Origin: Paenibacillus alkaliterrae
GTDB taxonomy: Bacteria; Bacillota; Bacilli; Paenibacillales; Paenibacillaceae
Assembly: GCF_021532375.1 (NCBI RefSeq)
Contig: NZ_JAKGAP010000007.1
Span: forward strand, 1-64,000
DNA: 64,000 bases
Direction: 5' to 3'
In this document: piece by piece, positions 3,301 through 45,765 of the stretch
Numbering within the stretch: position 1 is the stretch's first letter
How the letters are laid out: every line of letters starts with the position of its first letter
Made by a program: the position numbers and the translations under genes
The notes under the pieces: generated by a model
Database searches by the model: none
Told to the model about the DNA's origin: nothing
Seen by the model: the letters and a program-made list of their open reading frames with translations, nothing else

Positions 3301-3333
3301 TTCGCTTACGAAGTAGGTTTGCTCCGCAAACCT
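3301..3333 (+). repeat. 33-bp hairpin repeat, copy 1, upstream of yqfC
   Basis: Shares its sequence with 44141-44173 and 44178-44210: a conserved GCTTACGAAG block and then a perfect eight-pair stem, AGGTTTGC (3315-3322) with GCAAACCT (3326-3333). The yqfC ribosome site AAGGAGG starts three bases later (3336-3342). Confidence 0.75.
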
Positions 3334-3355
3334 TTAAGGAGGCAATGATTCGTCC

Positions 3356-3634
3356 ATGCGTCGTATAAAAAGAAAATTTCGGAAAGTAACCGCTGAGCTA
3401 TTGGATATGCCGCATGACGTCGTATATGATTTGCCGCGCTTAACGATGATAGGAGATCGACAATTATATATCGAAAATCACCGGGGAGTCGTACATTTTT
3501 CAAGCGAGCGTCTGCGACTTGCCTTAAGTAAGGGACAGCTGGAAGTAACGGGCAGCGATCTCGTCATCCGCACGATATGGACGGAGGAAGTATTTGTCGA
3601 AGGCCTCATTGAAAACATAAAATTTTTTCCTTGA
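3356..3634 (+). CDS. yqfC: sporulation protein YqfC
   Basis: 92 residues, the usual family length. Basic N-terminus, then the conserved LDMPHDVVYDLPRLTMIG and NHRGVVHF stretches of the YqfC/YabP-like family. It is made in the mother cell under sigma-E and is required for efficient sporulation; biochemical role unknown. ATG at 3356 lies 13 bases after AAGGAGG. An ATG nearer the ribosome site (3345) is in another frame and opens only seven codons. It is followed by yqfD, as in B. subtilis. Confidence 0.92.
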   Translation: MRRIKRKFRKVTAELLDMPHDVVYDLPRLTMIGDRQLYIENHRGVVHFSSERLRLALSKGQLEVTGSDLVIRTIWTEEVFVEGLIENIKFFP

Positions 3635-44140: not shown

Positions 44141-44173
44141 TATGCTTGCGAAGCAGGTTTGCTGCGCAAACCT
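44141..44173 (+). repeat. 33-bp hairpin repeat, copy 2
   Basis: First of a tandem pair in front of gluconokinase. A TATGCTTGCGAAGC block precedes AGGTTTGC (44155-44162), which pairs with GCAAACCT (44166-44173). Related to 3301-3333. Confidence 0.8.
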
Positions 44174-44177
44174 AGCA

Positions 44178-44210
44178 TATGCTTACGAAGCAGGTTTGCG
44201 CAGCAAACCT
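44178..44210 (+). repeat. 33-bp hairpin repeat, copy 3
   Basis: Second of the tandem pair. AGGTTTGC (44192-44199) pairs with GCAAACCT (44203-44210), and the ribosome site AAGGAGGAGG begins at the very next base. Confidence 0.8.
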
Positions 44211-44226
44211 AAGGAGGAGGAAAAAG

Positions 44227-45765
44227 TTGAGTATGAAATATGTAATTGGCGTTGATATTGGCACAACCAGCACGAAGTCCGTGCTATTTACGGTTAACGG
44301 CTCCATTGTGGCCAGTCATGGCATTGAATATCCGCTCCATTCTCCGTCGCCAGCTATTGCGGAGCAGGACCCGGATGAAATATTCAGGGCCGTTCTCGGG
44401 ACGATCGGACAGGCCGTTGCAAAGAGCAATGTGCAGCCTGCCGACATTTTGTGCGTGTCATTCAGCTCCGCTATGCATAGCGTTATCGCTGTGGATAAGG
44501 AAGGAACTCCGCTTACTAAATGTATTACATGGGCGGATAACCGCAGTTTAGAGTGGACCAATAAAATTAAAAACGATTGGAACGGGCATGACATTTATTT
44601 GCGTACGGGCACGCCTATTCATCCCATGTCACCATTATCTAAGCTTACCTGGCTTCGTCATGATCATAAAGAGCTGTTTGATCGTTCGTATAAGTTTATA
44701 TCCATAAAGGAATATGTGTTCTTTAAACTGTTCGGCCGTTATGTTATTGATTATTCGATTGCATCCGCAACGGGCATGTTCAATTTGCGGCAGTTGCAAT
44801 GGGATGAAGAAGCGCTCGAAGTTGCAGGGGTTACTGCTGACCGGTTATCCGAGCTCGTACCGACGACTTACAAGCTGGAAGGATTAGATAGTAGTTTTGC
44901 AGAGCAGATGAATATCCTTCGGGAGACGCCGTTCATCGTTGGCGCAAGTGATGGCGTTCTATCTAACCTCGGCGTGAATGCAATCGAGCCTGGGGTCGTT
45001 GCGGTAACGATCGGGACAAGCGGCGCGATTCGAGCCGTAACGGACAAGCCGGTTACAGATCCGAAGGGAAGAATTTTTTGCTACGCCTTGACGGAAAATC
45101 ATTGGGTGATCGGCGGTCCCGTCAATAATGGAGGAATGATCTTCAGATGGGTACGCGATCAAATCGGAACGGCAGAGATTGCTGAAGCTAAGCAGCGCGG
45201 CGTGGATCCCTATGAGTTGTTGACCGAATTGGCGGCAAAAGTGAAGCCGGGCTCCGACGGGCTGATTTTCCATCCATACTTGGCGGGTGAACGCGCGCCG
45301 TTATGGGATGCGAATGCGAGAGGCTCCTATTTCGGACTAGGCTTGCATCATAAGAAGGAGCATCTGATCCGGGCCGCATTAGAGGGCGTTATATATAATT
45401 TATACAGCGTATTGATGGCTCTCGAGGAATTGACCGGCAAGCCGAAAAAAATTCAGGCGACGGGAGGATTTGCGAGATCCGAGCTATGGCGCCAGATGAT
45501 GGCTGATATTTTCGATCAGGAGCTGCATGTTCCCGAAAGCATCGAAAGCTCATGTCTAGGCGCGGTTATTCTTGGATTGTACAGCTTAGGCGAGATCGAT
45601 TCGCTTCATGCCGTAGCGGATATGGTAGGAGCATCGCACTTCCATTTGCCCAATAAGCAAAATGCGGAGATTTATTCCGAGCTCATGAGGATCTATATTC
45701 GCGTTTCTCGTTTATTGACTGATGAATATGCGAATATTGCGGCTTTTCAGCAAAAATGGGTATAG
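44227..45765 (+). CDS. gntK: gluconokinase, FGGY family
   Basis: 512 residues, matching B. subtilis GntK (513). It has the ATP-binding IGVDIGTTSTKSVLF, the substrate-region TWADNRS, the TIGTSGAIR motif and the C-terminal ATGGFARSELW. It phosphorylates gluconate to 6-phosphogluconate; xylulokinase is a less likely alternative given the context. TTG at 44227 is well spaced from AAGGAGGAGG; ATG at 44233 is the alternative. Two hairpin repeats lie immediately upstream. Confidence 0.9.
   Translation: MSMKYVIGVDIGTTSTKSVLFTVNGSIVASHGIEYPLHSPSPAIAEQDPDEIFRAVLGTIGQAVAKSNVQPADILCVSFSSAMHSVIAVDKEGTPLTKCITWADNRSLEWTNKIKNDWNGHDIYLRTGTPIHPMSPLSKLTWLRHDHKELFDRSYKFISIKEYVFFKLFGRYVIDYSIASATGMFNLRQLQWDEEALEVAGVTADRLSELVPTTYKLEGLDSSFAEQMNILRETPFIVGASDGVLSNLGVNAIEPGVVAVTIGTSGAIRAVTDKPVTDPKGRIFCYALTENHWVIGGPVNNGGMIFRWVRDQIGTAEIAEAKQRGVDPYELLTELAAKVKPGSDGLIFHPYLAGERAPLWDANARGSYFGLGLHHKKEHLIRAALEGVIYNLYSVLMALEELTGKPKKIQATGGFARSELWRQMMADIFDQELHVPESIESSCLGAVILGLYSLGEIDSLHAVADMVGASHFHLPNKQNAEIYSELMRIYIRVSRLLTDEYANIAAFQQKWV

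Follow-up and report, generated by a model that had tools for sequence, protein, structure and literature searches.

A small repeat of a decamer and an RNA hairpin placed before ribosome-binding sites in Paenibacillus and its relatives

We analyzed a window of 64,000 nt from Paenibacillus alkaliterrae (GCF_021532375.1, contig NZ_JAKGAP010000007.1, positions 1–64,000, forward strand). The short repeat found in this window is best read as a small dispersing element, whose RNA hairpin would mark and shield the 5′ edge of the ribosome-binding site and whose decamer is perhaps a nuclease signal. Its architecture, its placement, the compensatory pairing of its stem, its presence or absence between relatives, its copies before 5S rRNA and the predicted openness of the adjoining ribosome-binding site were established in this analysis.

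Direct reading revealed three plus-strand units in the window, one located 5′ of yqfC and a tandem pair located 5′ of gntK (Table 1). The first-pass annotation had reported the same three units, and shuffle tests as well as direct reading bore this out. A 19-base head-plus-arm pattern, allowing up to 3 mismatches, matched the window three times compared to 0.04 expected, and none of 100 shuffles reached three. The stem-loop alone, at the same tolerance, also matched three times (0.33 expected; 1 of 100 shuffles reached three). The three units are far above chance. Opposite-strand echoes of these units aside, the genome-wide model search revealed no further site in the window at E ≤ 10. The repeat had been described as a 33-bp unit; it is real, but its period was 37 bases in the gntK array and 36–41 bases in the other arrays examined. 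Likewise, the tandem at gntK does consist of two units, except that the head of the first is a one-base variant, GCTTGCGAAG. The AAGGAGG noted within three bases of the stem was present at both genes (gaps of 2 and 0 nt), and the names given to the two genes were backed by NCBIfam.

Table 1. Repeat units and adjoining features in the 64,000-nt window
Feature	Position	Strand	Evidence and remarks
Head decamer GCTTACGAAG of yqfC	3304..3313	+	Direct reading; same head exact in 51/79 Shine-Dalgarno-adjacent units of five genomes
yqfC hairpin AGGTTTGC-TCC-GCAAACCT	3315..3333	+	Covariance model R1 match 3302-3334, E 4.1e-12; this unit is itself among the 14 used to build R1
yqfC Shine-Dalgarno AAGGAGG	3336..3342	+	2 nt past stem; direct reading
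yqfC CDS (92 aa), downstream gene	3356..3634	+	NCBIfam TIGR02856, 97.4 bits, cut-off 77.8
gntK array unit 1	44144..44173	+	Head GCTTGCGAAG 44144-44153, hairpin 44155-44173, loop TGC; without own Shine-Dalgarno
gntK array unit 2	44181..44210	+	Head GCTTACGAAG 44181-44190, hairpin 44192-44210, loop GCA
gntK Shine-Dalgarno AAGGAGG	44211..44217	+	Abuts stem (gap 0); direct reading
Gluconokinase CDS, downstream gene	44227..45765	+	NCBIfam TIGR01314, 785.7 bits for 44227-45700

Two further observations concern the starts of these genes. A distance of 13 nt separates the yqfC Shine-Dalgarno sequence from ATG 3356; within it a short frame (3345–3368, MIRPCVV) begins with an ATG of its own and overlaps the yqfC start; this intervening ATG was absent from the other yqfC leaders compared. 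Candidate starts of gluconokinase 3′ of its Shine-Dalgarno sequence were TTG 44227 and ATG 44233. The gluconokinase frame is open from ATG 44179, inside the array at the second unit, and no Shine-Dalgarno sequence was seen for this ATG. Thus, the unit would be readable as a 16–18-codon extension if ATG 44179 were used.

Fourteen units, stripped of the Shine-Dalgarno sequence, were used to build a covariance model. In the 5.6-Mb own genome, it gave 34 matches at E ≤ 0.01, one of which was an opposite-strand palindrome echo, leaving 33 units in 29 arrays. As many as 28 of the 29 arrays were followed directly, on the same strand, by a Shine-Dalgarno sequence and a start codon (27 by script and one, C82:68200 with GGGAGG then ATG, by eye), and the sole array away from a gene start was one decayed unit. 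Random positions at the same loci of five genomes passed this test in 539 of 52,000 cases (1.0%). The search of the genome and of relatives therefore yielded many more copies than the original three, and those of the own genome are not random relative to starts, in agreement with the annotated attachment to ribosome-binding sites. A stable hairpin directly 5′ of the ribosome-binding site of the downstream gene is also what is expected for an RNase Y-associated or 5′-stabilizing hairpin.

Next, the pairing of the stem was examined in 124 aligned matches, 103 of them distinct, which came from 86 chosen loci. In this alignment, 95.7% of 807 cells were paired, and double changes were present at seven of the eight pairs. 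Double-changed cells numbered 152 compared to 36.8 after shuffling, and the covariation score was 0.488 compared to 0.131 for shuffled data, falling with each slide of the partner. Since the alignment was fitted to the model, two stem tests that do not use it were run as well. In the first, stems were sought directly in 79 of 80 Shine-Dalgarno-adjacent units of five genomes; the score was 7.2 compared to 1.4 for shuffles, with 50 distinct arms. Among order-wide sequences, a strong stem was found in 68 of 85, compared to 2.3% of shuffles, with 60 distinct arms; in 60 of these 68, the gap between stem and AGGAGG was 2–3 nt. Selection on an RNA hairpin, proposed from the window alone, is thus backed by compensatory changes.

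Those of the 79 Shine-Dalgarno-adjacent units without an exact head carried 1 or 2 mismatches, and at three loci (L209, L233, and L205) the stem had 12–14 pairs or the loop approximately 25 nt, yet head and Shine-Dalgarno sequence were kept. Stem length and sequence differed widely even inside the single genome G013. Stems were alike within a lineage and different between lineages; AAGAATTGC was common in G001 and G008, and AGGTTTGC in the group of the window, which fits the expectation of spread inside genomes. The palindromic unit with a conserved head in many copies, as in REP repeats, was also found here. At yqfC orthologues, 8 of 14 genomes carried the unit and 6 did not. Compared to the other yqfC units, those of G020, G016, and G023 showed a double change, each at one pair and at two different pairs overall; the innermost pair was broken in G021 and G012. 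A second short stem, AAGC/GCTT, upstream of the head was suggestive in the own genome, but was dropped because the upstream bases in another family were often AAGA and unpaired, as judged by eye. Pairing of the decamer with rRNA was judged to be at chance level; complementarity extended over at most 7 nt for 23S (3′ half) and 6 nt for 16S, and 5S had no complement of 6 nt or more. When 12 own-genome loci were searched with Rfam 15 up to E 5, no model matched at the element. Off the element, L21_leader matched elsewhere on L009 and THF-II matched beside the element on L013, below its gathering score.

The repeat was found in all 25 searched genomes of the genus, the own genome included, with 4 to 118 matches each at E ≤ 0.1; these counts are rough, as they include opposite-strand echoes and are taken among at most 150 scored candidates per genome. 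When named genomes were scanned with an exact 19-base seed, 73 stretches were obtained, of which 67 were Paenibacillus or relative-like (including Bacillus sp. FJAT-26390 and FJAT-28004, which are apparent relatives). The other six, from unrelated groups, were taken as chance, showing by eye no comparable hairpin with a following Shine-Dalgarno sequence. In the 67 stretches, a script found a Shine-Dalgarno sequence and a start 3′ of 60 of 72 arrays; this test was lenient, allowing a start codon up to 75 nt away, and the 60 positives probably include at least one false case, L096. The 12 negatives comprised five split or inner parts of arrays (three on L081, L095, and L136), one array at the end of its stretch (L110), two yqfC sites (L078 and L085) with a longer spacer beyond the test range, three copies from Paenibacillus sp. 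P25 (L101 and two on L126), and L105. Arrays contained 1 to 18 units, with a spacing of 36–40 bases in these stretches. The longest were one of 18 units with a 37-bp period 5′ of yqfC in P. paridis (L145) and one of 15 units with a 38-bp period 5′ of a 392-aa gene in strain FJAT-26390 (L139).

Four relatives (G001, G002, G008, and G013) were analyzed by the same census; they were picked non-randomly, for best matches unlike that of the window or for high counts. Arrays lay at gene starts in 25/40, 14/23, 11/19, and 3/18 cases, the last two ratios belonging to G013 and G002, respectively. Extragenic placement with no fixed relation to gene starts, as for REP/RAYT, was not seen in the own genome, and in the relatives only 53 of 100 arrays were at Shine-Dalgarno sites. 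Larger dispersed repeats containing head and hairpin accounted for 29 of the arrays off gene starts (13 in G002, six in G013, and ten in G001 and G008). The other 18 included Shine-Dalgarno sites that the script missed (e.g., L246, L248, and L267, by eye), inner or decayed units, L367, which resembles the G001/G008 repeat, and rRNA-linked or ambiguous places.

Across the order, the pattern head GCTTACGAAG-N(15-40)-AGGAGG was sought with no stem requirement and with the reversed pattern as a control. It was present in 193 of 296 genomes. The pattern undercounts and is by itself no proof of decamer conservation, because the exact decamer and AGGAGG were demanded. The genus of the window gave 94 matches compared to 2 for the control (8 genomes), whereas the other genera of its family showed a weak excess (137 compared to 47; 162 genomes). 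A second large family gave 1069 compared to 43 (104 genomes), with up to 64 per genome; these family totals omit 22 of the 296 genomes, which lie outside the two large families. Of 20 copies fetched from the second family, 19 were followed, 5–9 nt past AGGAGG, by a start codon that opens an ORF of 40 or more codons, and visual reading of the twentieth showed an ATG at 7 nt. In the rest of the class beyond the order, matches were found in 11 of 360 genomes, including G349 with a long hairpin, by eye, and G641 with a 4-bp hairpin. These few matches indicated that the element is mainly a trait of the Paenibacillus order, strongest in the second family and the genus of the window.

We then compared the same genes between species. 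At yqfC and rpmA, the element was present, multiplied, decayed, or missing depending on the genome, and the Shine-Dalgarno sequence was kept throughout, as judged by eye. The array 5′ of yqfC varied from 1 to 18 units depending on the species; such differences in array length at the same gene provide a natural dose series. Several rpmA copies looked decayed by eye, with no replacement. A head with at most one mismatch was found directly 5′ of an RNase J gene in the own genome (L374, C82:246429-246575) and in 7 of 26 other readable genomes (L418-L445; 28 loci examined, 2 of them unreadable). The tagged gene passes the NCBIfam RNase J model, and it scored 782 bits with the J1 model (cut-off 820). 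In the RNase J leader, the 3′ arm was kept, and the 5′ arm was variable and poorly paired in several species, as judged by eye. This poor pairing and the decay at rpmA indicated that the hairpin is not essential at these genes.

The unit was also observed inside larger repeats. One, of approximately 230 bp (L201, L203-L206, and L210 in G013; 13 places in L217-L229 in G002), contains the decamer and hairpin, and it is transposon-like, with imperfect terminal inverted repeats GTTCAAAAAG.CCACTTT. Among its six G013 copies, a unit at one place was present in three and absent from three, and a reversed unit elsewhere was present in two and absent from four, indicating that the unit can be gained or lost on its own. 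A second dispersed repeat, of approximately 160 bp, carries the same decamer with a CTTTCTTNCAGAAAG hairpin (L234, L238, L239, L241, L242, and L245 in G008; L266, L271, L273, and L275 in G001; ten class 2 copies, chosen by eye, were aligned). It is located off gene starts, and several copies were just 3′ of terminator-like sequences. In Paenibacillus sp. P25 (L096, L101, and L126), what came after head and hairpin was GAAGGTCTGG and then a stem and T run resembling a terminator, in place of a Shine-Dalgarno sequence; these copies may represent a different use or a fragment.

Such observations bear on an alternative that we consider somewhat unlikely, namely that the element is a REP-like mobile palindromic DNA repeat with little or no host function. 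The pairing would then reflect a single-stranded DNA hairpin as transposition substrate, and the location would reflect a target preference for AGGAGG-like DNA or the loss of copies landing elsewhere. The units with and without at two places of similar repeats in one genome, one of them reversed, are consistent with this alternative, as are the lineage-specific stems and the patchy, decaying copies at orthologous genes where the native Shine-Dalgarno sequence persists. CTTAC beside GAAG presumably also resembles the cleavage and guide sequences of IS200/IS605. Nevertheless, mobilization by IS200/IS605 or RAYT was rejected, as the Y1 transposase (PF01797) had no match in 21 of 25 same-genus genomes and matched in four; the negative genomes include those with the highest repeat match counts (G020, G022, and G001). 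Carriage by phage or plasmid was likewise rejected, as no phage match and only four weak plasmid matches (E 0.6) were found, one being 24 bases on a Paenibacillus replicon. The single decayed unit off a gene start among 29 own-genome arrays, the very different stem lengths and sequences in G013, and the double changes at the same orthologous gene, yqfC, also argue against a mobile repeat with little or no host function.

Copies linked to rRNA were further found. In G025, which belongs to another family, a unit lies between 23S and 5S rRNA, with 4 nt separating the end of the model match from the 5S gene; a different operon has a unit between 23S and a tRNA. Units were also located 4–5 nt before the 5S gene in G027 and G029, where 5S was located by Rfam. 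A search of 198 genomes of the order, with the exact decamer required, found the pre-5S pattern at 17 places spread over 5 genomes, compared to 6 for the reversed control. Eight of the places were in G192 and showed four different paired stems; four further matches there were not 5S. Units 5′ of 5S rRNA are not explicable by translation, which argues for a non-translational role at the RNA level, and copies ending 4–5 nt before 5S rRNA fit RNA processing or protection better than translation. The annotated suggestion of a mobile repeat that tunes translation thus stands in part: gain and loss as a unit were seen at orthologous genes and inside repeats, but tuning of translation does not cover the pre-5S units. 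In G013, one unit (L199) lies antisense approximately 45 nt before 16S rRNA, and this copy is left unexplained by a role at the RNA level.

The genes upstream of 80 Shine-Dalgarno-adjacent arrays were mixed; there was a same-strand ORF in 58 cases (29 within 60 nt), an opposite-strand ORF in 21, and none in one, by a rough rule that takes the longest upstream ORF and mis-sorts some sites, such as rpmA. This mixture indicated that the element is tied to the ribosome-binding site and not to a promoter or to one type of neighbor. By the same rough rule, a purely intercistronic role was ruled out by the 21 opposite-strand cases. In 59 of 80 cases, the Shine-Dalgarno sequence was predicted to be more open with the native element region than with a shuffled one. 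Its mean unpaired probability was 0.462 compared to 0.379 after shuffling, and slightly higher than the 0.382 at 28 other genes (p 0.047). In the predicted fold the Shine-Dalgarno sequence was not paired as an RNA thermometer or a switch that hides it would require, and this predicted openness makes hiding of the site unlikely. Both the opening and the narrow spacing between stem and Shine-Dalgarno sequence would suit a direct enhancer or insulator of translation that needs neither nuclease nor factor. The helix would prevent upstream bases from pairing with the site and may stack on the helix bound by the ribosome, so that initiation would rise. We regard this as quite improbable, since the effect is modest and predicted, and since neither the conserved decamer nor the pre-5S copies would be accounted for.

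The explanation that we prefer, though we hold it tentatively and somewhat short of probable, is a cis-acting RNA 5′-edge element, composed of a nuclease signal decamer and a protective hairpin before a functional start, that spreads as a unit. The element would consist of a fixed decamer, GCUUACGAAG, and a hairpin of almost any sequence, with the ribosome-binding site 2–3 nt further. The hairpin would act in the transcript directly before the functional start, that is, the Shine-Dalgarno sequence or, in a few genomes, 5S rRNA, and would leave this start open. It may block a 5′-to-3′ exonuclease (RNase J in this phylum), and the single-stranded decamer would be a likely landing or cutting signal for an endonuclease, with RNase Y as the obvious candidate. 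A cut followed by this roadblock would give the downstream RNA its own stable 5′ end, also inside operons. The unit of approximately 38 bp would spread within a lineage; individual genes would gain it, amplify it in tandem, or lose it, and it would be kept before ribosome-binding sites. We infer the nuclease and RNA-stability steps by analogy; a decamer that is conserved, a helix whose sequence is free, and a functional start left accessible together appear to fit a processing or protection element. In the accessible text of PMC11780869, the main role of the hairpin in B. subtilis cggR-gapA is to keep RNase J1 off the RNase Y product, and G|A is favored at sites cut by RNase Y. The decamer contains CGAAG, so that G|A is available. 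According to the same text, RNase Y prefers U at −2 and −3, and the G at −1 is dispensable at tested sites (PMC11780869); CG|AAG in the decamer lacks the preferred U at −2/−3, which does not match the nuclease reading. For hbs mRNA, RNase J1 trims up to the initiating ribosome, as stated in the accessible part of PMC3997798.

Other observations also count against the 5′-edge element. In approximately one fourth of the cases, the element is 3′ of an opposite-strand ORF, and no operon cut is needed there. Moreover, 13 of 18 arrays in G002 and 6 of 19 in G013 are inside transposon-like repeats with no gene start, to which the ten dispersed-repeat copies of G001/G008, the antisense pre-16S copy, and the terminator-side P25 copies are added. 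The yqfC units with a broken innermost pair (2 of 8), the 6 of 14 genomes with no unit at yqfC, the poorly paired or decayed copies at the RNase J gene and rpmA, and the small number of genomes with the pre-5S form (5 of 198) weigh in the same direction. Alternatively, a trans-acting regulator, that is, a Paenibacillales protein or small RNA, may read the decamer and hairpin and jointly switch the translation of many genes. The decamer recurs order-wide (in a search that required it exactly) and the stem is free, as expected if a factor reads the decamer and the helix serves only to position it. Furthermore, the spacing to AGGAGG is narrow in most strong stems, and the same genes are tagged in several species. 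We nevertheless consider such a regulator unlikely, since no shared function is evident among the targets, since presence varies between close species, and since the pre-5S copies are untranslated. Family search named the RNase J family, yqfC, and gntK among these targets; the others, named by reading their proteins, are presumably rpmA, rpmB, grpE, ruvC, ppk, ppc, nirD, and more.

These results suggest that the repeat may be an undescribed RNA signal that protects or processes many messenger RNAs. A broader proposal, which we consider rather doubtful, is an order-wide post-transcriptional code, in which a decamer-hairpin tag is read by a dedicated nuclease or factor, is copied from gene to gene, possibly sets dose by tandem repetition (up to 18), and defines the 5′ ends of mRNAs and some 5S rRNAs. 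If this code were true, feedback would be possible, as the RNase J gene itself is tagged. Should the preferred reading be right, many genes of a large group of soil and plant bacteria would have in common a portable RNA signal next to their ribosome-binding sites, and further genes would be recruited by copying a unit of approximately 38 bp. The element would also be a natural component, ready for use, with which RNA stability or translation could be set. It would exemplify repeats becoming regulatory RNA at scale, and it would open a route to the enzyme that makes the 5′ ends of mRNAs and 5S rRNA in this group.

Finally, the repeat was compared with known systems. REP/REPIN/BIME sequences with RAYT, in the accessible text of PMC2817692 and PMC3116915, are similar in being short palindromes with a conserved head, in tens of copies or more, and lineage-specific; in contrast, the present repeat mostly lacks a Y1 match and shows same-strand placement at Shine-Dalgarno sequences, direct tandem arrays, and free stems. 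MITEs are similar in that units lie inside the ~230-bp repeats with imperfect terminal inverted repeats (G002 and G013). Visual inspection of the ~38-bp unit itself showed no terminal inverted repeats at its ends. For the Bacillus 5′ mRNA stabilizers, namely the aprE leader stem-loop, STAB-SD, and hbs, we know of no repeat family, decamer, or tandem arrays. Their likeness, as given in the accessible part of PMC3997798, is that a 5′ structure or a ribosome guards against decay. The stem-loops of the cip-cel operon of Ruminiclostridium cellulolyticum are alike in being intergenic, directing cutting, and stabilizing ends in a Firmicute operon; however, their cuts are often 3′ of the stems, they concern one operon, and the accessible text of PMC10311766 reports no common decamer. 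The RNase Y cut with a 5′ hairpin in B. subtilis cggR-gapA and glnRA shares with our proposal the hairpin at the 5′ end of a processed RNA and the upstream G|A. As far as the accessible text of PMC11780869 describes them, those are single sites with cleavage, whereas here a decamer recurs with a narrow distance to the Shine-Dalgarno sequence at tens of sites per genome, with cleavage proposed by us. A search of mostly open-access literature, with the decamer and Paenibacillus and with broader terms, found no paper that appears to describe such an element. Stabilizing hairpins and palindromic repeats are each known already; what seems to be new is that the two are combined, in a family of repeats linked to ribosome-binding sites throughout an order.
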